A DNA stretch of 64,000 bases, from the NCBI RefSeq assembly GCF_017916365.1, contig NZ_JAFMSU010000001.1, positions 1 through 64,000 on the forward strand. Reading direction: 5' to 3'. The position numbers were made by a program, and so were the translations under genes. How positions within the stretch are numbered: the stretch's first letter is position 1; each line of letters opens with the position of its first letter. Below, piece after piece: positions 4,333 through 63,657 of the stretch. Source of the stretch: Rufibacter roseolus (GTDB lineage Bacteria; Bacteroidota; Bacteroidia; Cytophagales; Hymenobacteraceae). The notes beneath the pieces are model-generated. The model did no database searches. It was not told the origin of the DNA and was given only the letters and a program-made list of their open reading frames with translations.

Positions 4333-4370
4333 CCGTTTTTAGGCCTATTTTCAGAAATCAGCCTTAAAGC
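4333..4370. repeat. PAL palindrome copy
   Basis: Arms CCGTTTTTAGGCC and GGC-rich GCCTTAAAGC around the centre ATTTTCAGAAAT. Intergenic, between divergent promoters. Confidence 0.6.
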
Positions 4371-4516
4371 CCACAAGCCAGGTAAACCCGTAAACGCCAG
4401 CTCCAAATAGCACCAGCCGGCGCTCTGGACCACAAAGATAGCCGAACCGTTCCTCCCCGCAAACAATTCCCTCCATCACAGCAAGCTGCTTTTGCGTACA
4501 TCCTTTTTGGCTTGTT

Positions 4517-4550
4517 TTGCTGAAATGAGGCCGAAAACGCTCTACCTTCG
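4517..4550 (+). promoter_or_regulatory. Possible promoter for M61 peptidase gene
   Basis: TTTTG (TTG at 4517-4519), 23-nt spacer and TACCTTCG (4543-4550), one mismatch from TAnnTTTG, 36 bp before the GTG start. Confidence 0.35.
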
Positions 4551-4585
4551 TTACCAAGAAGAAATCAACATAAGAACCATACGCA

Positions 4586-6337
4586 GTGCCGCACTACCAC
4601 CTCTCCTCCCAGAACCCGCTCTCCGGTTTTCTGCAGATCCGGACGTCTATTGAGAACATCGCCACGCCAGAAGTTTACCTGCAGCTGCCCGCCTGGCGGC
4701 CCGGCCGGTATGAACTGCAGAATTTCGCGCAGAAGCTGCAGGCCTTTGAAGTTCTGGCCCCAGATGGTTCCCCCCTGCCCTTCCGAAAGGAGACCAAAGA
4801 CCGCTGGCGGGTAGAAACGCAAGGACACCAGACCCTGGAAGTGCGCTACAATTTCTTCGCCCGCCAGATGGACGCCGGGGGCTCCTGGCTTGCGCAAGAT
4901 TTCCTGTACGTGAACCCCGTCAACTGCCTGCTCACCGCCCTGGGTCAGGAACAAGAACCCTGCACTTTAACCCTAGAGATCCCCGATGATTGGCAGATTG
5001 CCTGCGGACTCTCGGTTTCAGCCCCCCGCACGCTACAGGCCCAGAACTTTGATCATTTGGTAGATTCTCCGTTCATCTCCAGCGCCACGCTGCAGCACCA
5101 GGTCTATGAAGAAGGTGGTATTCTGTTCCACGTGTGGTTCCAGGGCGATTGCACACCAGAATGGAAACAAATTCTGCCGCACTTTCAGGCGTTTACCAAA
5201 GAGCAACTGGACCTTTTCGGGAGTTTCCCGGTCAAGGATTACCACTTCCTCAACATTATTCTGCCTTTCCAGCATTACCATGGGGTGGAGCACCTCAATT
5301 CCACGGTGATCACGCTGGGGCCATCGGAGCAGCTGATGACACCGGCACTCTATAAAGAACTCTTGGGCGTGAGCTGCCACGAGCTTTTCCACACGTGGAA
5401 CATCAAGCAAATCCGGCCCAAGGAGATGCTGCCCTATGATTTCACCCGCGAAAACTACTTCCGGACGGGCTACGTGGCCGAGGGCGTCACCACTTATTAC
5501 GGCGATTACCTGCTGGCCCGAAGCGGCGTGTTTACCTCAGAGCAGTACTTCCAGGAACTGAACACCGTACTCAAGCGCCACACCGTGGACCAGGGCGAAC
5601 AGAACCTCTCCGTTGCTGATTCCTCTTTTGACACCTGGCTGGACGGCTACAAACCCGGCATCCCCGACCGCAAGGTGAGCATCTACCACAAAGGCTGCAT
5701 TGCGGCACTGGTCTTGGACCTAGAAATAAGAAAAGCCACCCAAAACGCCCGTTCCCTGGATGAGGTCATGCGCCGGATGTGGCTGGAGTTTGGCAAGCAA
5801 GGCATCGGCTACGCCGAAGAAGATTACCAGCGCCTGGCTGAGGAAGTAGCAGGCGTTTCTTTGGAGCAATACTTTCGGGAAATGGTTTTCGGGACGACGG
5901 CTTTTGAAACCTGGCTGGCACCGGCGCTGGAATACGTGGGTTGTCTGCTGGAAAAAGAACCGGCTGCACTGGCTTACGAAAGCACGTATGGTTTCCGGTT
6001 GAACGCTGCCTTGCCCTCTGCCTCAGTCATTGGCTACGTGGTTCCTAACTCGCCGGCGGCCCAGGTGCTTTCCGTAGACGATGAGTTGATTGCAATCAAT
6101 GGTCGCAAAGTGGAGAACAGCAACTTGGCTAATCTGGTCAAAGGTCAAGCTGAGCTGGAAATTACCTTGTTCCGGCAAAAGAGGCTGAAAACGGTAAAGC
6201 TCAAACCTGACGGAACGGTGTACCTGCCGCAGTACTGCGTGAAAAAGAACCCATCGGCTACGGCCCAGCAACAGGCCAACTTCAAAGCCTGGCTTAATCA
6301 GGACTTCAGGGATACAGCAAAGGCAACCAAGGCATAA
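4586..6337 (+). CDS. M61 family metallopeptidase with PDZ domain
   Basis: A 583-residue protein of the glycyl-aminopeptidase family M61. An N-terminal beta domain (about 1-170) precedes the thermolysin-like zinc domain with HELFHTWN, the zinc histidines being H265 and H269, and the downstream glutamate in GYVAEGVTTYYGD. A C-terminal PDZ domain (about 480-550, SVIGYVVPNSPAAQVLSVDDELIAINGRKV, given here in parts as SVIGYVVPNSPAAQ and DELIAINGRKV) completes the usual layout. Family members remove N-terminal glycine or alanine. No signal peptide is visible, so a cytoplasmic site is likely. The start is GTG: an in-frame TAA lies 15 bp upstream with no ATG in between. It is monocistronic in appearance and ends just before a PAL element. 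Confidence 0.9.
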   Translation: MPHYHLSSQNPLSGFLQIRTSIENIATPEVYLQLPAWRPGRYELQNFAQKLQAFEVLAPDGSPLPFRKETKDRWRVETQGHQTLEVRYNFFARQMDAGGSWLAQDFLYVNPVNCLLTALGQEQEPCTLTLEIPDDWQIACGLSVSAPRTLQAQNFDHLVDSPFISSATLQHQVYEEGGILFHVWFQGDCTPEWKQILPHFQAFTKEQLDLFGSFPVKDYHFLNIILPFQHYHGVEHLNSTVITLGPSEQLMTPALYKELLGVSCHELFHTWNIKQIRPKEMLPYDFTRENYFRTGYVAEGVTTYYGDYLLARSGVFTSEQYFQELNTVLKRHTVDQGEQNLSVADSSFDTWLDGYKPGIPDRKVSIYHKGCIAALVLDLEIRKATQNARSLDEVMRRMWLEFGKQGIGYAEEDYQRLAEEVAGVSLEQYFREMVFGTTAFETWLAPALEYVGCLLEKEPAALAYESTYGFRLNAALPSASVIGYVVPNSPAAQVLSVDDELIAINGRKVENSNLANLVKGQAELEITLFRQKRLKTVKLKPDGTVYLPQYCVKKNPSATAQQQANFKAWLNQDFRDTAKATKA

Positions 6338-6341
6338 ATTT

Positions 6342-6380
6342 CGTTTCTGAGGCTCTTTTGAAGAAACAGGCTCTAAACGC
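6342..6380. repeat. PAL palindrome copy
   Basis: CGTTTCTGAGGCTC and its near-complement ending TCTAAACGC, centre TTTTGAAGAAA. It lies 4 bp after the M61 stop. Confidence 0.6.
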
Positions 6381-6445
6381 TTAAGGAAGATCTCCGGGAA
6401 AATTGGAGGCGCTTTCTTACCTTGAAGAGACAAAACAAGAAGACC

Positions 6446-8184: not shown

Positions 8185-8222
8185 CCGGTTTTAAGCCTAT
8201 TTTCGCAAAATCTACCCTAAAC
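8185..8222. repeat. PAL palindrome copy
   Basis: CCGGTTTTAAGCCTATTTTC then GCAAAATCTACCCTAAACA; the right arm is degenerate. It lies in the divergent gap between two small genes. Confidence 0.5.
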
Positions 8223-8290
8223 AGCAGCAAGAATTAGACAGCGTTGCACGTTCTACCCTTGACGTTATTTTGAGGGCTTTGAGACTAGAG

Positions 8291-8743: not shown

Positions 8744-8782
8744 CTGTTTAAGGCCTGTTTTCAGTAAACCAGCCCTAAACGG
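8744..8782. repeat. PAL palindrome copy
   Basis: CTGTTTAAGGCCTG, centre TTTTCAGTAAA, right arm CCAGCCCTAAACGG. It ends 1 bp from the PfkB stop codon. Confidence 0.65.
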
Positions 8783-9880: not shown

Positions 9881-9920
9881 TTGTTTTGCAACTGCTTTCT
9901 GGAAAACAGCCTTAAAACGA
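9881..9920. repeat. PAL palindrome copy
   Basis: TTGTTTTGCAACTGCTTTC, then TGGAAAACAGCCTTAAAACG. It lies between the kinase promoter and the tRNA-His terminator. Confidence 0.55.
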
Positions 9921-11480: not shown

Positions 11481-11520
11481 GTATTTTTAGGCTGATTTTC
11501 TAAAAACAAGGCGAAAACGG
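11481..11520. repeat. PAL palindrome copy
   Basis: GTATTTTTAGGCTGATTTTC, then TAAAAACAAGGCGAAAACGG. Confidence 0.55.
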
Positions 11521-11527
11521 CAAAGTA

Positions 11528-11640
11528 TAGACGCTCGCAGGTCCTTCCGGACGTTATGAGGTCAAGTAATTAGTCTTAAGTTCTGAGTCCTGAGTGGGGA
11601 ATGTGTTTTTAGGTCTTCTGAAGAAAGAGGTCAGAAACGC
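11528..11640 (+). repeat. Composite R2-R5-PAL unit, copy 1
   Basis: R2 (11528-11565, GACGCTCGCAGGTCC, CCGGACG, TTATGAGGTCAA), then R5 (GTTCTGAGTCCTGAGT), then GGGAATGTG and a PAL copy (11602-11640). The same module order recurs at 44261-44387 (reversed) and 50064-50191. Confidence 0.65.
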
Positions 11641-11682
11641 AGTTGAACCTGCCCCTCCCAAGAGGGGAATCCTGTTTTACCA

Positions 11683-11791
11683 TCGCTGGCGCGGGCCTCT
11701 GGCTCGTGTCCGCACGCGTTCCTGGTCCCTACGTTTGAGAATCAGCGCTCATCAGCAAAAGAAGGCATGAGCCGGAGGCTCGCGCCAGCGA
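11683..11791. repeat. Inverted repeat, 26-bp arms
   Basis: 11683-11708 (TCGCTGGCGCGGGCCTC, TGGCTCGTG) is nearly the reverse complement of 11766-11791 (CATGAGCC, GGAGGCTCGCGCCAGCGA), with a 57-bp loop. It nests inside the R2-bounded element. Confidence 0.65.
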
Positions 11792-11795
11792 GAGG

Positions 11796-11845
11796 TTCGC
11801 AGGTCCTCCAGACCTCGTAGCGTCCGGAGGACCTGCGAGCGTCTC
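11796..11845. repeat. R2 repeat, head-to-head pair
   Basis: CGCAGGTCCTCC at 11798-11809 faces GGAGGACCTGCG at 11826-11837, followed by AGCGTCTC; a complete R2 in reverse orientation preceded by a half copy. Confidence 0.6.
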
Positions 11846-11855
11846 ACCACCATTT

Positions 11856-11893
11856 CGTTCCCTGCCTGTTTCCCCAAAATCGGCTTGAAAACG
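11856..11893. repeat. PAL palindrome copy
   Basis: CGTTCCCTGCCTGTTTCCCC, then AAAATCGGCTTGAAAACG; it ends 20 bp before the helicase -7 box. Confidence 0.55.
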
Positions 11894-13368: not shown

Positions 13369-13419
13369 TTGATTGCTGATTGCTAGTTGCTATTTCTGCT
13401 ATTTTAAAGAGGGCATCTC

Positions 13420-13457
13420 TTTTTGAGGCCAATTTTGAAATAGCACCTAAAAACAGA
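13420..13457. repeat. PAL palindrome copy
   Basis: TTTTTGAGGCCAATTTTGAA, then ATAGCACCTAAAAACAGA; flanks the left arm of the terminator. Confidence 0.5.
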
Positions 13458-13492
13458 AGAGCCGCATGGTTATCCACGCGGCTCTTCTGTTT
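13451..13492. terminator. Bidirectional terminator
   Basis: 15-bp stem AAACAGAAGAGCCGC (13451-13465) with GCGGCTCTTCTGTTT (13478-13492), between convergent helicase (+) and membrane protein (-) genes. PAL copies overlap both feet of the stem. Confidence 0.8.
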
Positions 13493-13526
13493 TATACCTG
13501 TTTTAAGAAAAATCACTTCAAATCGC
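13487..13526. repeat. PAL palindrome copy (degenerate)
   Basis: CTGTTTTATACCTGTTTTAA, then GAAAAATCACTTCAAATCG. Confidence 0.45.
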
Positions 13527-15830: not shown

Positions 15831-15870
15831 TGTTTTGAGACTGTTTTGGCAGAACCGGCCTCAAAACACG
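15831..15870. repeat. PAL palindrome copy
   Basis: TGTTTTGAGACTGTTTTGGC, then AGAACCGGCCTCAAAACACG; complementary outer arms TGTTTTGAG/CTCAAAACA. In the divergent gap between the acyltransferase and barrel genes. Confidence 0.6.
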
Positions 15871-17712: not shown

Positions 17713-17747
17713 ATGTAGGGGCAATCCCTTGTGGTTGCCCTTTCGCC
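17713..17747 (+). repeat. R4 repeat (GGGGCAATCCC type)
   Basis: ATGTAGGGGCAATCCC, TTGTGGTTGCCC, TTTCGCC. Related copies at 40137 and 40183; GGGCAACC/GGTTGCCC also forms the terminator at 1835. Confidence 0.6.
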
Positions 17748-17890: not shown

Positions 17891-17930
17891 GCCGTTTTCT
17901 GCCTCTTTTACAGAAAACAAGCCCGAAAGG
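17891..17930. repeat. PAL palindrome copy
   Basis: GCCGTTTTCTGCCTCTTTTA, then CAGAAAACAAGCCCGAAAGG. Confidence 0.55.
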
Positions 17931-19833: not shown

Positions 19834-19890
19834 CAGAAGCCGTTTCGGGCATGTTTTCTTACAAACAAGCTTGAAACGGCTTCTGCTTTT
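19834..19890 (+). terminator. PAL-cored terminator of the ABC exporter
   Basis: Outer arms CAGAAGCCGTTTC (19834-19846) and GAAACGGCTTCTG (19873-19885) pair perfectly over 13 bp; the PAL centre GGGCATGTTTTC / AAACAAGC lies inside; CTTTTTC follows. This copy shows PAL acting as the body of a terminator. Confidence 0.7.
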
Positions 19891-20071: not shown

Positions 20072-20180
20072 TTGGAGCTGACGGTTTAGTGTTAGCAGCC
20101 AGAAACTCCCCTCCTAATTTAGAAAGGGTGGCAGGAAACAATGCCAAGACAAGCCAGTAAAAACCGGCATTCTACAGGTT

Positions 20181-20218
20181 GTTTCAGGCTTGTTTTTTGG
20201 AAATCAGGCCTGAGACAC
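20181..20218. repeat. PAL palindrome copy
   Basis: GTTTCAGGCTTGTTTTTTGG, then AAATCAGGCCTGAGACAC; arms GTTTCAGGC/GCCTGAGAC. Confidence 0.6.
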
Positions 20219-21396: not shown

Positions 21397-21425
21397 TAAA
21401 GTCGGTCCTTTACTTACAGGTACGC

Positions 21426-21460
21426 TTTGCGCCTGCTTTTCTAAAGACAGGCCTAAAAAA
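21426..21460. repeat. PAL palindrome copy
   Basis: TTTGCGCCTGCTTTTC, then TAAAGACAGGCCTAAAAAA; 30 bp after gmhA. Confidence 0.55.
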
Positions 21461-23151: not shown

Positions 23152-23525
23152 TACTCCTTCAAAGACTCACATTTTCTCTTTCCTCCTGATAGACTATGCT
23201 TTCCCAAAGCAGTTTGTCAGAAGGATTTTTATTTCCGCTTAGGATAGGGGTTATCTAATATAAGGCTGTCTAGTAGAGGAAGCATGGCAACGCAAAAGCC
23301 CCTTGCTCTCCCAAATGCATGAATGTGGGGTAGTGCGTGACAAAAAAAGTAAGAACCTTAACCTCTTAAAATTCACCCATATGTTCACTACCCTCAAAGA
23401 TTCTTTAGCAGCTCAGGCCAGAGACTTTATACTTACTTTTTGGTATATACAAAAACCAATATTTATTCTAAATAGCATTACCCATTACTAAACCTCAAAA
23501 ACATCTAAACCCTTATTATCCACTC
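23152..23525. other. Intergenic region before the barrel array
   Basis: AT-rich spacer with no credible gene, PAL copy or clear terminator. The last 150 bp are strongly AT-rich and presumably hold the promoter of the first barrel gene, but I cannot pick a -33/-7 pair. Confidence 0.5.
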
Positions 23526-24131
23526 ATGAAAAAAGTAGTTTTTTTGATTGCCGCATTATTCACTACCTATTTTGCCCAGGCCCAGGACGGCATCAAATTA
23601 GGTTTGAAAGCAGGTGTTAATGTGAGCAGTGTTGTTGGCAAGGACACAGAGAATCTAGGTAACCTCCTTGGTCTTCATGCGGGCGGTTTCTTAGACTATG
23701 GTCTTACAGATCAGTTTTCTATCAGACCTGAGCTCCTTTACTCTTTAAAAGGCTTCTATGCCGAAGCCGAGGAAGAAGACTTTGAGTATAAATCATACCT
23801 CACCTCCCACTACATTGACCTTCCGGTACTAGGCAGATTTAAAGCTGGTAATTTCTTTATTGAGGCTGGCCCAACCTTCTCCTTTCTGTTAAGTGCAAAA
23901 TCAAGAGACGAAGGCGAGATCATGGGCGAGGAGTATGAAGAAACCGAAACCGTGACCGATGAATTCAACAAATTTGACCTTGGCATTGCGGCCGGAGTTG
24001 GCTACCAGTTCCAGAGCGGTCTTGGCCTGGGCTTACGCTATAACCGTGGTTTGAGCAAGTTAGATAAGTCAGGAGAAGCCAAAGCCTTCAATTCTTCCTT
24101 CCAATTGGGCGTGAGTTACACACTGAGATAA
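23526..24131 (+). CDS. Outer-membrane beta-barrel protein, array member 1
   Basis: 201 residues. Signal peptide MKKVVFLIAALFTTYFAQAQ, then an eight-stranded-type small barrel (OMP_b-brl_2 / porin-family style) with GLKAGVNVSSVVG, FSIRPELLYSLKGF, YIDLPVLGRFKAG and a C-terminal FQLGVSYTLR strand. Such proteins are abundant in Bacteroidota and mostly uncharacterised. There is no terminator in the 81 bp before array member 2, so the two are probably co-transcribed. Confidence 0.85.
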   Translation: MKKVVFLIAALFTTYFAQAQDGIKLGLKAGVNVSSVVGKDTENLGNLLGLHAGGFLDYGLTDQFSIRPELLYSLKGFYAEAEEEDFEYKSYLTSHYIDLPVLGRFKAGNFFIEAGPTFSFLLSAKSRDEGEIMGEEYEETETVTDEFNKFDLGIAAGVGYQFQSGLGLGLRYNRGLSKLDKSGEAKAFNSSFQLGVSYTLR

Positions 24132-24212
24132 TCGCAGAAAGTATCTTTTCCTGCATACCTCCCTTGCCGGACGTTTCCCTTCATCAATTACCTAACCTAA
24201 ATCATAAACTTC

Positions 24213-24818
24213 ATGAAAAAGCTATTATTCTTTATTGCTGCATTGTTCACCACTTACTTTGCCCAGGCCCAGGAGGGCATTAAATTGGGTATCAAAGCAG
24301 GCGGGAACTTTACCAACGTTATGGGTGATGACCTGGATGACGCTGAGTATATCTTTGGTTTCCATGGTGGTCTCTTCGCAGACTACGGCATCTCTGAAAT
24401 GGTCTCTATCCGGCCAGAATTACTGTACTCTTTGAAAGGCTTCAAGTTTGAAGGTGAAGAAGACGGCGAAGAAGTCACGCTGAAATCAAGACTTAGCTAC
24501 ATTGATGTTCCAATCCTGGCCCACATTAATGCCGGCGGCCTGTTTTTTGAGTTAGGACCTACCTTGGGTTTCATGGTAAACGATAAAAACACGCTGGAAA
24601 TTGATGGCGAAGAGATTGACCTGGATACAGAAGAAGGAGAAGGCTACAAAAAATTTGAATTCGGGTACGCTGCTGGTATAGGTTACCAGATGCCTGCTGG
24701 CCTTGGCATTGGGCTGCGCTACCAGGGTGGTATCACCAGCATCAATGAAGATGATGATATCAAAGTTCGTAACTCTGTCTTCCAGTTGTCTTTAAGCTAC
24801 ATGTTTGGAGGTAGATAA
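24213..24818 (+). CDS. Outer-membrane beta-barrel protein, array member 2
   Basis: 201 residues, closest to member 1. Signal peptide MKKLLFFIAALFTTYFAQAQ, barrel repeats GIKAGGNFTNVMG, VSIRPELLYSLKGF, YIDVPILAHINAGG, GLRYQGGITS, and final strand FQLSLSYMFGGR. Acidic loops (LEIDGEEIDLDTEEGEG) face the outside. A terminator follows 20 bp after the stop. Confidence 0.85.
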   Translation: MKKLLFFIAALFTTYFAQAQEGIKLGIKAGGNFTNVMGDDLDDAEYIFGFHGGLFADYGISEMVSIRPELLYSLKGFKFEGEEDGEEVTLKSRLSYIDVPILAHINAGGLFFELGPTLGFMVNDKNTLEIDGEEIDLDTEEGEGYKKFEFGYAAGIGYQMPAGLGIGLRYQGGITSINEDDDIKVRNSVFQLSLSYMFGGR

Positions 24819-24838
24819 TCCTCTCTTCAAATGATTTT

Positions 24839-24868
24839 AAAAGGGGCCTCACATGAGGTCCCTTTTTT
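24839..24868 (+). terminator. Terminator after array member 2
   Basis: AAAAGGGGCCTCA / TGAGGTCCCTTTTTT hairpin followed by AT-rich sequence; ends the member 1-2 transcript. Confidence 0.75.
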
Positions 24869-25101
24869 ATTTGCCCCTTGTTGGGGTTATATAGGCTCTA
24901 CTACGTTATTCCCAAGTTCTACCCTCATGACCAAGCAGAACCTCTTCGTGTACTTTGCACTATTCTTCAATAACTTACCCTCATTGCACTCCAAAACAGC
25001 AGGCTGATCTAGCATCTAACATAGGAAAAAGAACTAAATCTTAGTATTTAGCGCCGCATTCTTCCCTCTAAATACAAATTTTAAGATCAAACCCTCATTC
25101 C

Positions 25102-25689
25102 ATGAGAAAACTACTACCATTCATAGCGGCACTATTTACTACTTACTTTGCTCAAGCCCAGGAAAGCACCAACTTTGGGGTAGTAGGCGGAGCCAACTTC
25201 AGCAACTGGACCGGGGCGAACGTAGGCGGAACCAAAAGCAAAGCAGGCTACCACGTAGGTGCCTTTTTAGATTATAAGTTTTCTGCCTTTGCCTCATTCC
25301 GCCCGGAGATTCAGTTGTCTAATAAAGGCTTTAAAACGGAAGGCGAAGGTGATGCCATACTGAGGGCTCAGGTAAACTACATTGATATTCCGGTCCTATT
25401 CCGGGTGAACGCTATTGGTTTGTTCTTTGAAGGCGGACCCACTATAAGCTATAAAATCTCCTCCAGGCTCAAGATAACGGAGGGTGACAGTAAAATCTCT
25501 ACGCCACTGAACGGACTCAAAAGGGTAGACATTGGGTATGCGGCTGGTCTTGGCTATGAACTGCCCGCTGGCATCGGAATTGGCTTACGGTACAATGGCG
25601 GCCTCTCAAAACTTCCTAGAAAAAGTGAAGCAAAAGTCTATAACTCAAACGTTCAGCTATCATTGAGCTACATACTTATAAGAAAGTAA
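25102..25689 (+). CDS. Outer-membrane beta-barrel protein, array member 3
   Basis: 195 residues. The signal region LLPFIAALFTTYFAQAQE repeats members 1 and 2 at protein level although its codons differ. The mature barrel is more diverged (FRPEIQLSNKGFKTEG, YIDIPVLFRVNAIGLFFEGG, GIGLRYNGGLSK). It stands alone, 283 bp after member 2 and with its own terminator, so it is likely monocistronic. Confidence 0.85.
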   Translation: MRKLLPFIAALFTTYFAQAQESTNFGVVGGANFSNWTGANVGGTKSKAGYHVGAFLDYKFSAFASFRPEIQLSNKGFKTEGEGDAILRAQVNYIDIPVLFRVNAIGLFFEGGPTISYKISSRLKITEGDSKISTPLNGLKRVDIGYAAGLGYELPAGIGIGLRYNGGLSKLPRKSEAKVYNSNVQLSLSYILIRK

Positions 25690-25706
25690 CCAGTTCTCGC
25701 AAAGCT

Positions 25707-25730
25707 AAAGGGCCTCAGATGAGGCCCTTT
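25707..25730 (+). terminator. Terminator after array member 3
   Basis: AAAGGGCCTC (25707-25716) with GAGGCCCTTT (25721-25730), 10-bp stem, loop AGAT, followed by AATTTT. Confidence 0.75.
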
Positions 25731-25813
25731 AATTTTACCCATGCAGTCCCCGCACCTATTCTACCTACTTACTCCCTGAATCAGAAACTTACAATCCATT
25801 TTCTTGCCATGAG

Positions 25814-25847
25814 CTTAATGGCCATTTTCCTGAAAACAGCCCTTAAG
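25814..25847. repeat. PAL palindrome copy
   Basis: CTTAATGGCCATTTTC, then CTGAAAACAGCCCTTAAG; outer arms CTTAA/TTAAG replace the usual GTTTT/AAAAC and still pair. Confidence 0.6.
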
Positions 25848-26102
25848 AAGAAATACTTATTTTTTATTTCCGGCATAGACGTGTATTGCTTAGAACCTGG
25901 GTCAAAAAGGGCTAATACGTTGAAAAACAAAGCTTCTAAACTGCATTTTTATCTTTTTCTAAGTTGTTTAAAATGAAGTTTTCCTTCCTGTTCAGAAACT
26001 TAATCTGTAAAAAAACAACATTTTGCTACGATACCGTATAATGGGGTGAGTTTTAAAAGGGTATGTCAGACAAACAACCCATAACCTAATTCTATTACCT
26101 CT

Positions 26103-26759: not shown

Positions 26760-26776
26760 TCAAAAGTAAATTCTTG

Positions 26777-27668: not shown

Positions 27669-27670
27669 CT

Positions 27671-27708
27671 GTTTAGAGGCCATTTTCAGCAAATCGGCTT
27701 GAGAACGG
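27671..27708. repeat. PAL palindrome copy
   Basis: GTTTAGAGGCCATTTTC, then AGCAAATCGGCTTGAGAACGG; abuts the bidirectional terminator. Confidence 0.6.
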
Positions 27709-29222: not shown

Positions 29223-29262
29223 CCGGTTTCAGCCCGGTTTTCTGAAAATGGCCTGAAAACGG
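29223..29262. repeat. PAL palindrome copy
   Basis: CCGGTTTCAGCCCGGTTTTC, then TGAAAATGGCCTGAAAACGG; 32 bp beyond the plsY stop. Confidence 0.65.
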
Positions 29263-30067: not shown

Positions 30068-30115
30068 CATCCCGTTTCCGGGCTGTTTATGTAAAATCAG
30101 CCGGAAAACGGGATG
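30068..30115. repeat. PAL palindrome copy with extended arms
   Basis: CATCCCGTTTCCGGGCTG, centre TTTATGTAAAA, then CAGCCGGAAAACGGGATG. The outer 7 bp (CATCCCG/CGGGATG) are unique to this copy and still pair, evidence for selection on the stem. Confidence 0.7.
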
Positions 30116-35436: not shown

Positions 35437-36276
35437 CTATTTTGTGGCTGTTTTCCGGAAAATGGCCGAAACCCAGTTGTTCTTGTTTCTGGACGACTCA
35501 AAAATAAGGCCAAGCTCCGTGGCCCTTTCCTGCAGTATGGGAAGGTCTTCGGTGTAGAAGCCGCTCAGCACCAAGGGATCGCCTTCCTGCAGCAATTGGC
35601 TGTAGACGGGCATGTCCTCCAAAAGCACGTTGCGATTGATGTTGGCCAGGATGAGGTCAAAGGGCGCTTCGCCCTGCAGCACGGAGGCATTGCCCAGGCG
35701 TACTTCCAGCGTTTGGCAGTTGTTGCGCTCAGCGTTCTCGCGGGCGTTCTCCACAGTCCAGTCCTCAATGTCCACGCCCAGCACCTCGCGGGCGCCCAGC
35801 TGCTCGGCCATGATGGCCAGGATGCCGGTGCCGCAGCCCATGTCCAGAACGCGCTTACCAACGTGGTCAAGGGTCAATTGGTTTTCAATCATGAGCGTGG
35901 TGGTCTCGTGGTGGCCCGTCCCGAAGGACATTTTAGGCGTGATCACGATGTCGTATTGAACTCCCTCGGGCTTGGGATGGAAATCGGCGCGCACTGATAC
36001 TTTATCGGCGATGAGCAGCGGCTCAAAGTTCTTTTCCCACTCCTCGTTCCAATTCTGCCTGGCGATGCTGCGGGTCTCGTAAGGAAACTCGCCGGCGAAG
36101 CTGTAGCGCTCCAGAACTTCCTGCAGGTCTTCTTCAGAAAAACGGTCATCTTCAATATAGGCCTGGAAACCTTCCTCGGTGTCCTGGAAGGTGTCAAAGC
36201 CAAGTTCGCCCAGCTCCGCGATCAGGATTTCTGAGTATTCTGGCGATGCGGTGATGGTTACTTCAATAAAACTCAT
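35437..36276 (-). CDS. prmA: Ribosomal protein L11 methyltransferase
   Basis: A 279-residue SAM-dependent enzyme that trimethylates ribosomal protein L11. Start MSFIEVTITASPEYSEILIA; 39 upstream in-frame codons are hydrophobic junk. The N-terminal L11-recognition domain is followed by the Rossmann fold with VLDMGCGTGILAI (SAM loop) and the catalytic-site LILANINRNVL; the PKMSFGTGHHETT linker is family-typical. The last ten codons (SAIFRKTATK) coincide with a PAL palindrome, so the C-terminus appears to have been written by the repeat. Confidence 0.93.
   Translation of the reverse strand: MSFIEVTITASPEYSEILIAELGELGFDTFQDTEEGFQAYIEDDRFSEEDLQEVLERYSFAGEFPYETRSIARQNWNEEWEKNFEPLLIADKVSVRADFHPKPEGVQYDIVITPKMSFGTGHHETTTLMIENQLTLDHVGKRVLDMGCGTGILAIMAEQLGAREVLGVDIEDWTVENARENAERNNCQTLEVRLGNASVLQGEAPFDLILANINRNVLLEDMPVYSQLLQEGDPLVLSGFYTEDLPILQERATELGLIFESSRNKNNWVSAIFRKTATK
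35439..35472. repeat. PAL palindrome copy inside the 3' end of prmA
   Basis: ATTTTGTGGCTGTTTTCC, then GGAAAATGGCCGAAACC. It includes the prmA stop codon. It is the only copy seen inside a coding region. Confidence 0.6.
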
Positions 36277-36449
36277 AAGCGTGTTTATACAAATTCTGCC
36301 ATTTGACAGAAGAGGTGGTAAATATTTCAACGAAAATAAGAGTAAAATCTTGCGTTTTAGACTTATTTCTAGAAAAGGAAGCGAAAAGCACAAAATAAAA
36401 TATCGGCCTCAGGCCACGCCAGATGCGATAGTAAGTTGGCTTAAAAGCA

Positions 36450-36483
36450 TTTTGGGCCTGTTTTCTGCAAAACAGGCCCAAAA
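36450..36483. repeat. PAL palindrome copy, perfect stem
   Basis: TTTTGGGCCTGTTTT (36450-36464) and AAAACAGGCCCAAAA (36469-36483) pair over 15 bp around CTGC. It lies between tpiA (stop at 36544) and prmA, and is the most regular copy in the window. Confidence 0.75.
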
Positions 36484-36543
36484 TATAAAGATTATACTAT
36501 ATAAATATTCGGGCTCCCTGTAAGGCTGCCCACCCAACAGAGA

Positions 36544-37357: not shown

Positions 37358-37396
37358 CCTTTTAGGTTCATTTTTCTGAAAACAGTTCTGAAACGG
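37358..37396. repeat. PAL palindrome copy
   Basis: CCTTTTAGGTTCATTTTTC, then TGAAAACAGTTCTGAAACGG; lies in the 5' region of tpiA. Confidence 0.5.
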
Positions 37397-40263: not shown

Positions 40264-40303
40264 CCGTTTAGCGCCTATTTTCTCAAAAACAGCCGCAGAA
40301 CAG
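40264..40303. repeat. PAL palindrome copy
   Basis: CCGTTTAGCGCCTATTTTC, then TCAAAAACAGCCGCAGAACAG; 3 bp beyond the uvrA stop. Confidence 0.5.
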
Positions 40304-43252: not shown

Positions 43253-43292
43253 CCGTTTTAAGGTTACTTTCTGAAAACCAAGCCACAAACGG
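43253..43292. repeat. PAL palindrome copy
   Basis: CCGTTTTAAGGTTACTTTC, then TGAAAACCAAGCCACAAACGG, in the divergent gap uvrA/THX, just upstream of the THX -33 box. Confidence 0.6.
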
Positions 43293-43540: not shown

Positions 43541-43583
43541 AACAGCGAGGCCCGCCAGAGAAATTCTGGCGGGCCTCGCTGTT
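43541..43583 (+). terminator. Terminator of the THX gene
   Basis: 19-bp perfect stem (43541-43559 with 43565-43583, GAGGCCCGCCAGA core), 5-nt loop, then TTAAG. It starts 13 bp after the stop. Confidence 0.8.
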
Positions 43584-43619
43584 TTAAGATTGATTCCAGA
43601 AATCGGGGCTAAAAACGAA
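43580..43619. repeat. PAL palindrome copy
   Basis: CTGTTTTAAGATTGATTCC, then AGAAATCGGGGCTAAAAACGA, joined to the right foot of the THX terminator. Confidence 0.5.
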
Positions 43620-44134: not shown

Positions 44135-44503
44135 AACTCCTCCTTTTCTGGCTACATAAGCAGTTTGGCTAATTTAAAAAGGCCGGATCTTCTCTCTTTT
44201 GTCATCTTGGAAGGATGACAAAAAGGTCTGGTTACTTCAATCCTGTACGCAAAACGTAAAATGCGTTTCTGATCTATTTTCTGATAAACAGGCCAAAAAC
44301 GCATCCTCGACTCAGGAATCAGGACTTAGAACTCAGGACTCATTGTTTGACCTCATAGCGTCCGGAGGACCTGCGAGCGTCTCCGCCAATAGCCTCAACC
44401 TCATCCTCCCAGAAACCTCTGCGCTACCACAAGCCGGAAGGTTCTCTCATCCTGCTGCTAACTGCCAAACCCGGCGAATGCAGCTTCATTCCAACGCAAG
44501 AAC
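44135..44503. other. Intergenic region before the efflux pump gene
   Basis: No gene. A 10-bp hairpin TTTTGTCATC/GATGACAAAA (44197-44206 with 44214-44223) and a reversed composite repeat unit (44261-44387) occupy it. Confidence 0.6.
44261..44387 (-). repeat. Composite R2-R5-PAL unit, copy 2 (reversed)
   Basis: PAL with paired outer arms ATGCGTTT/AAACGCAT (44261-44304), then R5 (ACTCAGGAATCAGGACTTAG and on), then R2 (TTGACCTCATAGCGTCC, GGAGGACCTGCGAGCGTC, to 44387). Confidence 0.65.
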
Positions 44504-48900: not shown

Positions 48901-50058
48901 ATGAGAACATCTTTTTTCACGTATAGCCTGGCCGGGCTTCTGCTGTTCTCGGCCTGTTCTGAGAAAAACACCCCTGAAACGCCTACAGCTGAAACTGCTG
49001 CTGCGCCAGTAGAAACGCCTGAGCTCATCACCCTCACCCAGCAGCAGATGCAGAACGCCGGCGTGGAACTGGGCTCGCCCACGCAACAGAAACTGGGCAA
49101 CACACTGCAGCTTTCCGGTGAAATAGACGTGCCACCCACCAGTTTGATCAGCGTCTCGGTGCCGTACGGCGGATTTGTGAAATCCATGAACCTGCTGCCG
49201 GGCCAGCACATCAACAAAGGCCAGGTTCTGGCCACCCTCCAGCACCCCGATTACGTGCAGCTGCAGCAGGATTACCTGGACACCCGCGCCCGCCTGCAGT
49301 TGGCCAACCTGGAGTACCAGCGTCAGCAGGAACTCACCCAGGAGAAAGTAAGTGCTCTCAAGAACCTGCAGCAAATCAAAACCGAGCGCGAGGTACTGCA
49401 GAACAGCCTGGCCGCCCTGCGCGAGAAACTGCTCATGATCAACATCAACCCGGCGCGCCTGCAGAACGGCAAAATCAGCCGGAGCATCAACATCACCTCG
49501 CCTATCAACGGCTTCGTGAAAAACACACTGGTGAACGTGGGCAAAATGGTGAACGCCTCTGATGTGCTTTTTGAACTGGTGAACACCGATGACCTGCACC
49601 TCAAACTCAACGCCTTCGAGAAAGACGTGCCTTACCTGAGCCCGGGCCAGCGCCTCACCTACACCCTGCCCAACGATCCCGCGCCCCGCACCGCCGAAAT
49701 CATCCTGGTAGGCCACAGCGTGGAAGGCGACAAAACCGTTCCTATCCACGCCCACCTGGACCACCACGACGAACATAAACTGCTTCCCGGCATGTACGTG
49801 ACCGCCACCGTCCAAACCACTGACCGTACCGTTACCGCCCTCCCGGAAAGCGCCGTGGTTCAGTTCGATGGCACGCCCTACGTGTACGCCAGCCCCGGCA
49901 ACCGCCAGTTCAAACGGGTAGAGGTAAAAACCGGCCTCAAAGGCAACGGCTATGTGGAAGTGCAGCTTCCGGCAGAACTACAATCCACCAGCAGCATTGC
50001 CGTGAAAGGCGCGCACAACCTGCTGGCCATGCAGGAGAACAAGGAGGAGGAAGAATAG
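48901..50058 (+). CDS. Efflux RND periplasmic adaptor (CusB/CzcB-type), lipoprotein
   Basis: 385 residues. A lipoprotein signal (MRTSFFTYSLAGLLLFSACS, lipobox FSAC) precedes a barrel-sandwich hybrid domain (SVSVPYGGFVKSMNLLPGQ, INKGQVLATLQHPDY), a long helical hairpin (about 120-190, QLQQDYLDTRARLQLANLE) and a beta-barrel domain. It links the inner-membrane pump and outer-membrane channel of the tripartite system. Its start is 2 bp after the pump stop, so translation is coupled. The acidic tail ENKEEEE is unusual but harmless. No metal-binding His/Met cluster is obvious. Confidence 0.92.
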   Translation: MRTSFFTYSLAGLLLFSACSEKNTPETPTAETAAAPVETPELITLTQQQMQNAGVELGSPTQQKLGNTLQLSGEIDVPPTSLISVSVPYGGFVKSMNLLPGQHINKGQVLATLQHPDYVQLQQDYLDTRARLQLANLEYQRQQELTQEKVSALKNLQQIKTEREVLQNSLAALREKLLMININPARLQNGKISRSINITSPINGFVKNTLVNVGKMVNASDVLFELVNTDDLHLKLNAFEKDVPYLSPGQRLTYTLPNDPAPRTAEIILVGHSVEGDKTVPIHAHLDHHDEHKLLPGMYVTATVQTTDRTVTALPESAVVQFDGTPYVYASPGNRQFKRVEVKTGLKGNGYVEVQLPAELQSTSSIAVKGAHNLLAMQENKEEEE

Positions 50059-50063: not shown

Positions 50064-50191
50064 ATAGACGCTCGCAGGTCTCCGGACGCTACGATGTCAA
50101 CCAATGAGTTATGAGTTATGAGTCTTGAGTGCTGAGTTCTGAGTCGGGAATGTGTTTTGGCGTTGGCCTGAGGAAAAGAGGCCGTAAATGC
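50064..50191 (+). repeat. Composite R2-R5-PAL unit, copy 3
   Basis: R2 (50064-50100: GACGCTCGCAGGTC, TCCGGACGCTACG), then four R5-type words (GAGTTATGAGTCTTGAG, TGCTGAGTTCTGAGT), GGGAATGTG and PAL (50151-50191, right arm GAGGCCGTAAATGC). Confidence 0.65.
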
Positions 50192-50193
50192 AA

Positions 50194-50224
50194 AAACCTG
50201 TGAGGTTCTCAAAACCTCACAGGT
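50194..50224. repeat. R3 palindrome (CCTGTGAGG type)
   Basis: AAACCTGTGAGGTT, CTC, AAAACCTCACAGGT; directly follows composite unit copy 3. Confidence 0.65.
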
Positions 50225-50256: not shown

Positions 50257-50296
50257 AGACCTCGTAGCGTCCAAAGGACCTGCGAGCGTCTCCGCC
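50257..50296 (-). repeat. R2 repeat, reversed
   Basis: AGACCTCGTAGCGTCC, AAAGGACCTGCGAGCGTC, TCCGCC. It mirrors the R2 at 50064. Confidence 0.65.
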
Positions 50297-50363
50297 AACT
50301 GCCTTGATTATCGCACATTATCTAGGGAGCAAATAGAGCCCTTCCGCAACTTCATCCCATAAC

Positions 50364-50417
50364 AAAGCCCCTGCTTTTGACCTGCTTTTCAGAAATCAGG
50401 GCAAAAGCAGGGGCTTT
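50364..50417. terminator. PAL-cored bidirectional terminator
   Basis: Outer arms AAAGCCCCTGCTTTTG (50364-50379) and CAAAAGCAGGGGCTTT (50402-50417) pair over 16 bp; the PAL centre ACCTGCTTTTCAGAAATCAG lies inside. It is 16 bp from the stop of the MFS gene. Confidence 0.75.
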
Positions 50418-52395: not shown

Positions 52396-52436
52396 GCCGT
52401 TTTGCAGGCATTTTCAGAAAATCGGCTTAAAAACAG
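52396..52436. repeat. PAL palindrome copy
   Basis: GCCGTTTTGCAGGCATTTTC, then AGAAAATCGGCTTAAAAACAG; in the convergent gap before the cydB stop. Confidence 0.65.
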
Positions 52437-54833: not shown

Positions 54834-55189
54834 AGCAAAAGGGATAAGTGGGTACTCTGCCTAAAGCGGTGGAAAGGTAAGACAGGAAGTAATAGCAGGA
54901 CAGGAAAAAGAGATATTTCTTACAGAGTGGTTTTAAATGTTTTGGGTGTTGGAGGAGGTGCACTCGTAGTCCGCTTTTGCTGGCGTGGCGCCGCAGCTTG
55001 CGTAGGTGCATAAACATTATTGTTTCATTGCTACTCTCCGTGCGCTCACGGCCGCGGGGCCCCGCCTTCCGGCCTCGCGCTGCGCCAGCTTCCTTTGCTC
55101 CCTTCGGTCGCAATGCCTAGCGGCAACGGAACCTGACAAGGCGCTCAACCGAAAGGCTGGAAAAGGAAATATGATTATAGGAGCGCCTC

Positions 55190-55222
55190 AGACCTCACAG
55201 GTTTTGAAAACCTGTGAGGTCT
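55190..55222. repeat. R3 palindrome, inner arm inverted
   Basis: AGACCTCACAGGTTTT, G, AAAACCTGTGAGGTCT. Compared with 40218 the outer AGACCT and the centre are equal but the CACAGG/GTGAGG halves are exchanged. Confidence 0.75.
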
Positions 55223-55445
55223 TCTGTATTTGCTATGGTTCAAGTCTGTGACTTGGACCTACTATGACCGGCAGTTCGCAAAGCCGTGAGGCACTAGCCT
55301 CAGAACCACTTATTGGGTCAGTTGGCCGGCTGCTTCACGGTCTCTAACTCCACTTTTATCAATAGAAGATTTTCCCTAGAAGGAGCGCAGGGGAATGTTT
55401 CTATCAACTGGCCATGGCTTTTCTATTATCATTTCCCACATTTCA

Positions 55446-55476
55446 CCCCTGTTTTCAGAAAAACGGCCCTAAAATG
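55446..55476. repeat. PAL palindrome copy
   Basis: CCCCTGTTTTCAG, then AAAAACGGCCCTAAAATG; left outer arm lost. Confidence 0.5.
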
Positions 55477-55954: not shown

Positions 55955-55994
55955 GCGTTTGAGGTCTGATTTTACAGAATCAGGTCTGAAACAC
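55955..55994. repeat. PAL palindrome copy
   Basis: GCGTTTGAGGTCTGATTTTA, then CAGAATCAGGTCTGAAACAC; 26 bp after the globin stop. Confidence 0.55.
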
Positions 55995-58375: not shown

Positions 58376-58642
58376 CCCAGCCCGGACAAAGTCAATTTAT
58401 CTCATTTTTATTGGGGCGGGAAACCTGAGATTGTTACTTTTGTTTTTCGGCCCAGGATCTTTGAAGAAGAATCTGGCCTTTGTGCTTCCTTTTTCAAAAA
58501 GCAGGCAAAAAACTTTTCAGGAGTTTTATAGCGTCAAACCCTAGTATTTTTTGGTGGTTTGAGGCCTTAAAAACCGCCAGAATGGGCGCCTGCTGCCTTT
58601 TACTGGTGTGATATTTGAGGCGGTTCCATTTTCTGCGTTTAA

Positions 58643-58681
58643 CTGTTTTAAAGCGGGTTTATGGAAAAGGGCTCTAAAACG
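58643..58681. repeat. PAL palindrome copy
   Basis: CTGTTTTAAAGCGGGTTTAT, then GGAAAAGGGCTCTAAAACG, 30 bp upstream of the sigma-gene promoter. Confidence 0.55.
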
Positions 58682-59643: not shown

Positions 59644-59690
59644 AAAACAAGAAGCCCTGGCTACTACCAATAGTCAGGGCTTCTTGTTTT
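59644..59690 (+). terminator. Terminator of the sigma-factor operon
   Basis: 16-bp stem AAAACAAGAAGCCCTG (59644-59659) with CAGGGCTTCTTGTTTT (59675-59690). A PAL copy begins on its right foot. Confidence 0.8.
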
Positions 59691-59721
59691 AAGCCTGTTT
59701 TTAAAAAAAGAGCATTTTTAT
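59684..59721. repeat. PAL palindrome copy (degenerate right arm)
   Basis: TTGTTTTAAGCCTGTTTTT, then AAAAAAAGAGCATTTTTAT. Confidence 0.4.
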
Positions 59722-59844
59722 AGATACTGGCCAATATTATCACGGCTACGCTTAATCATTCAGCTGATTCTTGCGCCTTGCAATTGAATATATTGCATTT
59801 GGAATGTAAAGGAGAAAACAATGTTAACCCGAACGGTTAGATTA

Positions 59845-62326: not shown

Positions 62327-62334
62327 CCAGGCCG

Positions 62335-62376
62335 CTTTTGTTTTGGGGCTGTTTTGCTAAAAATGTACCTAAAACC
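62335..62376. repeat. PAL palindrome copy
   Basis: CTTTTGTTTTGGGGCTGTTTT, given as GTTTTGGGGCTGTTTT, then GCTAAAAATGTACCTAAAACC; 9 bp after nth. Confidence 0.5.
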
Positions 62377-62509
62377 ATTTGCCCTTTCTTTCCTATCGCA
62401 AGACATAGTATATTAAAGATATTATTGGGGCATTGGGTTAATCTGTTCCTTTCAACGGGTAAGCTCCCAATGCCGGGTCTGGCCATTAGGTAAAAACCAT
62501 TAAGAGAAA

Positions 62510-63058
62510 ATGGATAAGATAGAAATCTACACCAGTAAGAAGAAGTCAGTATTTATGCTACTTGGCGCCTTGGTGTTCGTGGTTTTAGGGATATGGCTGT
62601 TCCTGGATGCAGAGCACCTCACCGGCTGGCCCGCACGAAATCCGCTCATCACGCAGGGAGTGGGAATAGCCTCGGTTTTGTTCTTTGGGTGCTGCGCCCT
62701 GGTGGCAGTCAAAAGAGTGATCAAAACAAAGCTGGCCTTAACACTTGACCCTAAGGGCCTGGGGTTTTACGCCAATAAACCTGCTCCTCTTCTGCTGGAA
62801 TGGAAAGACATCCTCGGCTTTGACGAGGTAAGAATCCAAAGCCAGAAATTTTTAGTCATTATGGTGACAGAGCCCAACTTCTGGATTGAGAAAGAAACAA
62901 GTTTCTTCCGCCGGAAATTGATGCAGCTCAACCTGAAGAACTATGGCTCGCCCTTTAATACCGCGGCCGCCGGGCTCGACATCAGTCATGAAGAACTGAC
63001 CGGAAAATTGAATAGCTATTTAGAAGAATATGGCTCTGGGGCCCATCAACCTGTATAG
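62510..63058 (+). CDS. STM3941-like membrane protein
   Basis: 182 residues. Two N-terminal membrane spans (about 13-31 and 46-66) and a soluble C-terminal PH-like half ending AAAGLDISHEELTGKLNSYL. The opening IEIYTSKKKSVFMLLGALVF and the terminal LDIS motif match the STM3941 family as I remember it. Function unknown. Confidence 0.72.
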   Translation: MDKIEIYTSKKKSVFMLLGALVFVVLGIWLFLDAEHLTGWPARNPLITQGVGIASVLFFGCCALVAVKRVIKTKLALTLDPKGLGFYANKPAPLLLEWKDILGFDEVRIQSQKFLVIMVTEPNFWIEKETSFFRRKLMQLNLKNYGSPFNTAAAGLDISHEELTGKLNSYLEEYGSGAHQPV

Positions 63059-63159
63059 CACCTGCTTTAGGTGTTACTTTCTATCAATTACAAACAATTG
63101 GCTGACCATTAACTAAACTGAGAGAATATACCGCAACTTCCTTCGAGTGATATTAAAGT

Positions 63160-63537
63160 ATGACCAATAGAGAAGAAATAATCCGGAACTACATAGACAG
63201 CTATAATCAGTTTGATGTGGACAGAATGGTACACGACTTTGATGAGACCATTGTATTTGAAAACATCTCTAATGGCGAAACTAACCTGTCCCTGACTGGC
63301 TTACAGGCCTTCAAAGAGCAGGCCGAGCAAGCTAAAAACTATTTTTCTTCCAGGAGGCAGACCATCACCTCCTTCAATCATCAAGGAAACCAAACCGAGA
63401 TCGAGATTGCTTACAGCGCCACCTTGGCGACAGACTTGCCCAATGGCTTGAAAAAAGGAGAGGAACTGAATCTCCAAGGCAAATCAATCTTCACTTTCTC
63501 AGGAGATAAGATCATTAAGCTGACGGACATCAGTTAA
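63160..63537 (+). CDS. NTF2-like / SnoaL-type protein
   Basis: 125 residues, start MTNREEIIRNYIDSYNQFDV. The cone-shaped alpha+beta pattern (helical N-terminus, DETIVFENIS strand, LTGLQAFKEQAEQ helix, then four strands ending SIFTFSGDKIIKLTDIS) is that of SnoaL-like/nuclear transport factor 2 proteins, which act as small-molecule enzymes or binding proteins. No signal peptide. Substrate not predictable. It is followed 225 bp on by another NTF2-like gene (exported). Confidence 0.78.
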   Translation: MTNREEIIRNYIDSYNQFDVDRMVHDFDETIVFENISNGETNLSLTGLQAFKEQAEQAKNYFSSRRQTITSFNHQGNQTEIEIAYSATLATDLPNGLKKGEELNLQGKSIFTFSGDKIIKLTDIS

Positions 63538-63617
63538 GAAGTAGTCTCCAGAACAATTTTCAATAACGATAGGGCAAAATAGCCTTGCCGCAGGATTTCC
63601 TTGGTTTTACCTGTTGC

Positions 63618-63657
63618 CTGTTTTAGGCACTAATCTTCAAAAACATACCTAAAACAT
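63618..63657. repeat. PAL palindrome copy
   Basis: CTGTTTTAGGCACTAATCTTC, seen as GTTTTAGGCACTAATCTTC, then AAAAACATACCTAAAACAT. Confidence 0.5.

Follow-up and report, generated by a model that had tools for sequence, protein, structure and literature searches.

REP/BIME palindromes, which are accompanied by RAYT transposases, are short, high-copy and located mostly 3' of genes or between convergent genes, and parS sites are present in few copies per genome and are shorter than the element described here. This element (PAL) is an imperfect palindrome family of Rufibacter roseolus, analysed in positions 1-64,000 of NZ_JAFMSU010000001.1 (the whole stretch of 64,000 nucleotides, hereafter the window). 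According to PMC1852404, uptake sequences exceed 1,000 copies and occur in terminators; in Neisseria meningitidis, paired uptake signals form 94 hairpins in 268 tail-to-tail regions as against 10 in 270 head-to-head ones, the majority of the signals being unpaired and many of them lying within genes. Dialects of uptake sequences are described in PMC3630211, and PMC12366685 describes eukaryotic Pol I terminators composed of a hairpin, a T-rich stretch and a roadblock protein.

PAL resembles REP/BIME elements in being a short, high-copy, extragenic imperfect palindrome found on the 3' sides of genes and in convergent gaps, but it has a fixed length, mostly stable orthologous positions and dialects, and neither mobility nor a link to a transposase has been demonstrated. 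Like the uptake sequences of Neisseria and Pasteurellaceae, it has more than 1,000 copies, occurs in terminators, prefers the tail-to-tail arrangement that uptake signals show when paired, and has dialects; unlike them, it is 38 bp long, nearly always a full dyad and rare in genes. Some copies of the genome G014 resemble the Pol I terminators, with a hairpin followed by a T tract and then by a putative protein site; PAL, however, is bacterial, genome-wide and dyad-symmetric, many copies have no extra hairpin, and its protein is putative. Intrinsic terminators share the location of PAL, a minority of whose copies are embedded in or abut a terminator hairpin, but PAL ends in AAAAC rather than in a T tract and is fixed in sequence and length. 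Like parS-type sites, it is a symmetric dyad whose arms are T-rich and A-rich, but it is longer and far more abundant, and ParB_N, the one protein family searched as a candidate binder, is not expanded in Rufibacter, being single-copy in the 16 Rufibacter genomes and in the three other genomes of the same family that were searched.

PAL is a dyad in which a 2-bp centre separates arms of 18 bp each (consensus YGTTTTnGGSCTGTTTTC-nn-mirror), and every arm carries a pair of T tracts spaced by about 11 bp (YGTTTT ... TGTTTTC-nn-GAAAACA ... AAAACR). The length of 34-44 bp given in the first-pass annotation is in fact 38 bp, the copies it listed at 11602 and 13420 measuring 36 and 37 bp, respectively. 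The family itself is real: the window contains 45 sites at score 12, whereas 10 dinucleotide shuffles average 0.3; in 464 kb of the R. roseolus genome (G000), 253 copies were retrieved at score 14 versus 2 in one shuffle. The 2-bp centre is found in 241 of these 253 copies (after removal of a pseudo-count of 1) and, without any prior on the spacer, in 147 of 151 half-site pairs of G014. A looser count of half-sites in G000 gave spacers of 2, 1 and 3 bp in 204, 52 and 45 cases, the last two presumably being T runs aligned in a shifted register. Extrapolation from density yields about 2,900 copies per genome, roughly one every 2 kb; a 102-kb contig harbors just 2 in the 100 kb read, versus about 53 expected from density. 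Half-sites seldom occur alone: a scan of 400 kb of G014 at score 18 gave 305, of which 10 were solo, and among 12 solo half-sites listed at score 13 in G014, four are halves of degenerate PALs. All 164 G014 copies are distinct as written, 162 when strands are merged. In Rfam, no match to PAL was found in the window, where tRNA alone reaches the gathering score.

All 35 positions listed by the first-pass annotation hold PAL in a scan at score 11; the list overlooked 4502..4539 (score 36.0), which precedes the gene at 4586 by 46 bp, 36353..36390 (score 29.6) and the weak copy 58477..58514 (score 22.6). Coordinates are given without strand. Orthologues were found in congeners for 4334..4371 (score 34.1) and 6342..6379, the latter 4 bp past the stop at 6337, and were compared for 37358..37395, from the motif scan, and for 43254..43291, which lies in a divergent region, as do 11482..11519, 15831..15868 and 43580..43617. 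Two copies, 8745..8782 and 27670..27707, are downstream of a terminator hairpin in convergent regions; 55956..55993 and 62339..62376 lie 26 and 12 bp past a stop, 40265..40302 is 3 bp from the 3' end of a UvrA-like gene, 9882..9919 is close to tRNA-His, and 11856..11893 is 32 bp ahead of a helicase gene. The near-perfect palindrome 36448..36485 scores 40.3. The degenerate copies 11604..11639 (36 bp, score 17.0) and 50153..50190 (score 20.8) each adjoin another repeat (D6 in the case of the former). A terminator-like hairpin is flanked 5' by 13419..13455 (37 bp) and 3' by 13488..13525, whose T tract prolongs that of the hairpin. Paired outer arms characterize 19841..19878, located within a hairpin (AGAAGC/GCTTCT), 30073..30110 (CATCCC/GGGATG), whose orthologous site in 6 congeners likewise has paired outer arms, and 50372..50409, in the loop of a terminator-like hairpin (AAAGCCCC/GGGGCTTT). 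The PAL-like 35438..35475 overlaps the 3' end of an ORF and may be a coding coincidence. The motif scan also returned 8187..8224, 17893..17930, 20180..20217, 21423..21460, 25812..25849, 29224..29261, 44264..44301, 52398..52435, 55439..55476, 58644..58681, 59685..59722 and 63619..63656. Sites at 266, 6156, 15320, 16282, 26592, 48944 and 52314 were excluded as weak or coding; that at 48944 looks, by eye, like a lipoprotein signal sequence.

The density of PAL is maximal 25-100 bp downstream of stop codons. In G014 it reaches 8.2 per kb at distances of 25-50 bp from a 3' end and drops to 0 beyond 150 bp where a 3' end is the closest gene boundary, as against 0.35 per kb in the 25 bp next to a start; in G000 it falls off more slowly with distance from the 3' end than in G014. 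In intergenic regions of 80-300 bp of the two genomes, PAL is present in 38 of 43 convergent, 94 of 169 codirectional and 10 of 46 divergent regions (convergent versus divergent, p=1.4e-10), and codirectional regions shorter than 80 bp contain it in 3 of 48 cases in G000 and 4 of 69 in G014. Copies in divergent regions number 28/234 in G000 and 20/164 in G014. The statement that the palindromes lie between genes is true of most strong copies (7/149 at score 30 are inside genes called with a simple script), but not of 38/245 at score 16, nor of the copy listed at 35439.

Within the genomes searched, PAL is restricted to the genus: a covariance model found it in all 16 Rufibacter genomes and in none of 13 other relatives. 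When orthologous intergenic regions of nine congeners were compared, presence or absence was concordant in 180 of 197 comparisons, in which identical G000 regions are counted repeatedly (135 with PAL in both, 45 in neither, 13 in G000 only and 4 in the other only). At orthologous sites, identity is 89% over the 12 T/A-tract positions, 68% over the other 26 positions and 67% in the aligned intergenic flanks (108 copy-species pairs from 7 congeners, picked for their long alignments, whether or not the element was there). In the species sampled, the spelling of PAL is species-specific, forming dialects.

On the whole, PAL is best explained as a genus-specific DNA site and not as a mobile repeat. 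It displays the fixed spacing and the like preferences in both arms of a protein-bound dyad, and the conservation of gaps despite differing spelling suggests that a putative protein reads PAL and separates neighbouring genes. From such sequence features we infer that protein binding might affect termination or insulation. A sequence-specific protein would bind PAL as a symmetric dimer or tetramer at sites lying mostly within 100 bp past a stop and in most suitably spaced convergent pairs; once bound, it would mark and insulate the ends of transcription units, most likely as an orientation-independent roadblock, with RNA polymerase held at a terminator hairpin or T tract. We give this reading somewhat less than an even chance. 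Among the three options of the first-pass annotation (RNA hairpin, REP-like element, nucleoid or protein site), the last appears the best supported, in view of the rigid geometry, the conserved T/A tracts and the near-absent polarity with respect to transcription. In fact, the 5'- and 3'-side arms have equal base preferences in G014 (no position with p<0.05), and three positions differ when ten genomes are pooled (p 0.012, 0.032 and 0.0016, uncorrected).

Some observations stand against a roadblock. A terminator scan recognised no terminator upstream, around or downstream of most 3'-located copies (251/439), and copies exist between divergent genes, where nothing requires termination. The peak of hairpins directly abutting PAL is limited to G014 (8 of 26 stems at offset 0), the 27 stems near PAL in G000 being spread over offsets. 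RNA-like pairing signals also exist, as does the asymmetry of the three arm positions in the pooled genomes. Classical terminators are not rarer at PAL-bearing sites.

The alternative that survives best, which we nonetheless consider unlikely, is an RNA hairpin at mRNA 3' ends, where the transcribed PAL would fold and either aid intrinsic termination or block 3'-to-5' exonucleases. The location of PAL favors it, and some copies cap long hairpins with at least five contiguous outer pairs (11/234 in G000 versus 0.68 expected, 18/164 in G014 versus 0.56), all of them 16-98 nt past a stop and none belonging to the 48 copies in divergent regions or the 53 inside genes; the private paired outer arms noticed earlier are therefore genuine, but belong to a minority. 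At 50372, the outer arms differ among three species, yet they pair in each. The excess of pairing in ten pooled genomes is clear at pairs 7 and 8 (z of 5.9 and 3.7) and weaker at pairs 3 and 6 (2.5 and 2.7); the idea of a pairing kept in preference to sequence is right only in part, most pairs showing no excess. On average, just 10.6 of 18 pairs are formed in 234 G000 copies versus 10.3 with shuffled arms (in total 2490 versus 2420, sd 23, of 4212), and 14.20 versus 14.11 of 18 in G014 (sd 0.07); in the window, 71.5% of cells pair versus 69.2%, with a covariation score of 0.234 versus 0.193, matched by 1 of 500 shuffles. Mismatches of the G.U type exceed A.C ones in 3' copies (817:693) as against 249:277 in divergent and in-gene copies, and the flanks have no G/T bias; but arm-shuffled copies give an equal ratio, hence composition alone can yield the excess. 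Mean fold energies (-8.2 kcal/mol in G000 and -12.9 in G014) are more stable than those of dinucleotide-shuffled copies (-4.5 and -4.7) but scarcely different from those of arm-shuffled ones (-7.4 and -12.2), and the folds of 3' copies have nearly the same stability in sense and in antisense (-0.33 kcal/mol, t=-1.9, n=528). T tracts directly following codirectional copies are modestly enriched (13 versus 7.6 shuffled in G000, 13 versus 6.6 in G014; antisense, 8 and 10), with no excess in eight other genomes. The strict 38-bp length with its fixed centre, the fact that the conserved positions are A-T pairs, and the presence of PAL between divergent genes also argue against an RNA hairpin. The earlier proposal of a 3'-end or stability hairpin is thus consistent with the location and with the minority of copies in terminator hairpins, but not with the missing covariation of most pairs and the symmetric folds, and the low covariation of the arms suggests that PAL is read mainly as a DNA dyad rather than as an RNA hairpin or a mobile REP.

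It appears improbable that PAL is a DNA-uptake or other self-recognition signal multiplied by molecular drive, which would be tolerated chiefly at the ends of genes and recruited into terminators, like the uptake signals of Neisseria and Haemophilus. The copy number of about 2,900, the species dialects, the near absence from the 102-kb contig and a tail-to-tail preference like that of paired uptake signals in N. meningitidis would fit; yet PAL half-sites seldom occur solo, unlike the mostly unpaired uptake signals of that species, and strong copies are rare in genes. If PAL were an uptake signal, it would be, to our knowledge, the first obligate dyad among them. Quite improbable, too, is a nucleoid, gyrase or chromosome-organising site avoiding promoters and coding sequence and having no role in termination. 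The DNA-dyad features and the copies in long divergent regions agree with it, but avoidance of promoters would not by itself predict so tight a distribution as the drop of G014 density to zero and the near-full occupancy of convergent regions of 80-300 bp.

A mobile palindrome of REP or MITE type, perhaps propagated by a Y1/RAYT transposase and inserted near terminators, would most easily account, through an ancestral burst, for the high copy number and the genus restriction. Y1-family matches occur in 14 of 15 congeners and, as open frames of 141-201 aa, in the R. roseolus genome itself, and PAL lies within about 300 bp of an end of 7 of the 8 Y1 genes read in four genomes (no control set), one of which, L096 of G014, is the sole case with PAL on both sides; such proximity is, however, informally judged usual for any gene here, and G007 carries PAL with no Y1 match at E<=0.001. 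Species do differ at 13.42-13.53 kb, where the 13488..13525 copy is missing in several congeners and the alignment runs through the junction, but no precise 38-bp empty site was seen by eye in 26 junction-spanning alignments from 359 joined-flank queries. A MITE derived from an IS with half-site terminal repeats is not supported, as solo half-sites are few and none was seen to frame an IS in 400 kb of G014. Given also the stable orthologous occupancy, the lack of identical copies in G014 and the constraint on T/A tracts and length, the REP moved by a RAYT that was first proposed is very improbable.

As for the DNA site read by a putative protein, a palindrome every 2 kb or so that is kept in place in the Rufibacter species sampled while its spelling shifts from one to another points to a trans-acting reader with a general job at gene boundaries. 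It is possible, if doubtful, that one genus-specific protein bound to all these sites serves throughout the genome as a roadblock that terminates or insulates transcription, and that it has evolved together with its sites into dialects; this would be the bacterial equivalent of Pol I termination by hairpin and roadblock. If the reader is a termination roadblock, PAL would represent a new global way of separating bacterial transcription units, and Rufibacter would offer a natural experiment in which one protein co-evolves with thousands of sites.

PAL, the imperfect intergenic palindrome of Rufibacter roseolus, was searched for with a position model of its two arms, for which the window served as training set. 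The model recovered all the positions (35/35) listed in the first-pass annotation and, at score 12, returned 45 sites in the window, whereas 10 dinucleotide shuffles averaged 0.3. A frequency above that expected by chance was confirmed on 464 kb of the R. roseolus genome, which contains 253 PALs at score 14 vs. two in one shuffle. The palindrome itself was thus correctly described, while the length originally assigned to it (34–44 bp) does not hold, since 241 of these 253 copies share the same layout, i.e., an 18-bp arm, a 2-bp centre, and a second 18-bp arm, for a total of 38 bp. The 2-bp centre was also found in 147/151 half-site pairs of the congener G014, in a scan favouring no spacer. On the basis of density (245 copies at score 16 in 464 kb), the R. 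roseolus genome would harbor about 2,900 copies; all these counts derive from sampled sequence (464 kb of R. roseolus, 400–480 kb of G014, and about 70–80 kb of each of eight other species). When the window was compared with Rfam, only a tRNA matched.

Other repeats are present in the window. A second palindrome of 33 bp, of the type ACCTGTGAGGTTTT-AAAACCTCACAGGT, occurs in three copies (40216–40248, 50192–50224, and 55188–55220). A partly inverted GACGCTCGCAGGTCC / GGACCTGCGAGCGTC repeat surrounds degenerate PALs (11530–11857, 44349–44395, and 50258–50304), a GAGT-rich repeat ending in GGGAATGTGTTTT runs into the PALs starting at 11604 and 50153 (11565–11609 and 50100–50158), and a 25-bp repeat, TAGGGGCAATCCCTT.TGGTTGCCC, is located at 17716–17740 and 40138–40162. 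Lastly, the repeats D2/D3 at 23524–27315 point to a row of paralogous ORFs in tandem, each about 200 aa long.

A covariance model built from 37 window copies, with 150 candidates scored per genome, matched 16/16 genomes of the same genus and 0/13 other relatives. The exact consensus retrieved 14 stretches from the genome collection, all of them from Rufibacter, in a search from which sequences closely related to the R. roseolus genome may be missing. R. roseolus contains 523 occurrences of the bare T/A skeleton (control 0), vs. 0–15 in each of the other 117 genomes of the order sampled (controls 0–8). Among the skeleton matches, a genome of another family of the order (G128) seems to have its own interspersed repeat, GTTTTGGGC...GCCCAAAACG. 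In three sister genera (100–120 kb each), the model disclosed seven weak sites (14.8–18.9) and a single strong one, with a score of 27.1, in 100 kb of G017 (stretches L137–L141). Within R. roseolus, just two PALs were detected in the 100 kb read of the 102-kb contig C4 (L153, L157–L160), whose eight scanned proteins include type I restriction-modification subunits and a WD40-repeat protein; this scarcity suggests that PAL is a feature of the resident chromosome. No description of PAL was found among the open-access papers listed in searches aimed at such an element or its clade.

As regards gene calls made with a simple script rather than taken from annotation, of 234 regular PALs of R. roseolus 122 fall in codirectional, 47 in convergent, and 28 in divergent regions, and 37 lie in called genes. 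With respect to stop codons, the density in G014 reaches 8.2 per kb at 25–50 bp from the 3' end, is 6.5 and 6.0 per kb in the next two 25-bp bins, and falls to 0.9 per kb at 100–150 bp and to 0 farther out; it amounts to 0.35 per kb close to gene starts, peaking at 2.5 per kb 100–150 bp away. The 3' peak of R. roseolus (6.3 per kb) falls off more slowly. Considering the intergenic regions of 80–300 bp of the two genomes, PAL is present in 38/43 convergent, 94/169 codirectional, and 10/46 divergent ones. Codirectional regions shorter than 80 bp, which are probably internal to operons, contain it in 3/48 (R. roseolus) and 4/69 (G014) cases.

At least five contiguous outer pairs flank 11/234 copies in R. 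roseolus (about 0.7 expected) and 18/164 in G014 (about 0.6 expected); divergent regions and genes contain no such copy. A stem precedes PAL in 26/128 of the copies located 3' of genes in G014 (four when shuffled) and in 27/169 in R. roseolus (one when shuffled), with no peak at the PAL edge in the latter; in G014 the stems end most often exactly at PAL (8/26), which allows the CGTTTTT of PAL to act as the T tract. In 251 of 439 3' copies from ten genomes, no terminator was recognised upstream, around, or downstream. Classical terminators accompany 60/158 PAL-bearing vs. 31/132 PAL-free codirectional 3' ends (p = 0.011) and 56/121 vs. 22/49 convergent ones, region length being uncontrolled in both comparisons. 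The idea that PAL replaces terminators was therefore rejected, classical terminators being no rarer where PAL is present.

Presence or absence of PAL agrees in 180/197 comparisons of conserved adjacent gene pairs between R. roseolus and nine congeners, in which the same R. roseolus regions are reused. Long alignments of 35 of the 38 listed window copies with seven congeners (108 cases), in which the element was not demanded in the relative, revealed 89% identity at the twelve tract positions vs. 68% at the other PAL positions and 67% in the aligned intergenic flanks; only the T/A tracts are thus held. A separate alignment requiring the element inflates tract identity, and its figures are not those quoted; a set of 20 G014/G007 pairs, mostly non-syntenic (flank identity 0.16), was left out of the rates. 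The spelling differs among species, being CGTTTAGGGGCTGTTTTT in G005 and CGTTTTTGGCCTGTTTTC in G007 and G014, while the other sampled species have approximately YGTTTTnGGSCTGTTTT. The 164 copies of G014 are all different as written, and its dialect is hence not accounted for by recent copying. At 30073, paired outer arms enclose differently spelled PALs in six congeners. The PAL-like sequence at 48944–48981 lies in an ORF, is conserved in a coding-like manner, and appears by eye to be a lipoprotein signal (lipobox).

A protein-bound dyad marking the ends of transcription units fits these data best. A purely architectural site is one rival reading; another is an uptake-type signal spread by drive, since uptake signals resemble PAL in number, dialects, and tail-to-tail preference, according to PMC1852404, but have a single-copy habit that PAL lacks.

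PAL might also be an RNA hairpin. In the 3' copies, G.U exceeds A.C mismatches (817:693, p = 0.0015), and divergent plus in-gene copies have no such excess (249:277; difference p = 0.008), which hints at RNA-level tolerance; nevertheless, composition can cause it, since arm-shuffled copies give the same ratio, although the flanks have no G/T bias. The first-pass proposal that pairing rather than sequence is kept holds only in part, as arms pair hardly better than shuffled ones, against a hairpin. In 703 copies from ten genomes, excess pairing emerged at pairs 7 and 8 (facing positions of the arms) and more weakly at 3 and 6, the other pairs having none and pairs 13 and 17 leaning the opposite way. 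In G014 the base preference at each position is the same in both arms, with no polarity with respect to transcription; in the ten genomes pooled, three positions differ slightly between arms. Selection on total affinity might make the scores of the two arms inversely correlated; no such relation emerged (r = 0.12, p = 0.14). On the whole, a DNA dyad accords better than a hairpin with the strict geometry and the conserved A-T tracts.

REPs share the kind of location of PAL. PAL showed no such mobility as theirs, and the suggestion of a REP moved by a RAYT transposase seems less probable after a PF01797 search, the reading of eight Y1 loci, and a hunt for empty sites: 359 joined-flank queries gave 26 alignments spanning the junction, none with a precise 38-bp empty site as judged by eye. 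One of the two PALs at 13.42–13.53 kb is missing in several congeners. An IS/MITE terminal repeat was rejected, solo half-sites being few in 400 kb of G014 and none being seen to frame an IS, as were a ParB/Noc-type reader (ParB_N shows no expansion within the genus) and, with a strict pattern, a phage origin (no exact matches in viral contigs).

If PAL is a dyad bound by a putative protein, the bound site would mark transcription-unit ends and might act as a roadblock, aiding a hairpin and T tract in releasing polymerase; PMC12366685 reports a similar logic (hairpin/T tract plus roadblock) for Pol I. Resembling REPs and uptake signals, yet with no sign of the mobility of the former and without the single-copy habit of the latter, PAL can be filed among the intergenic palindromic sites.
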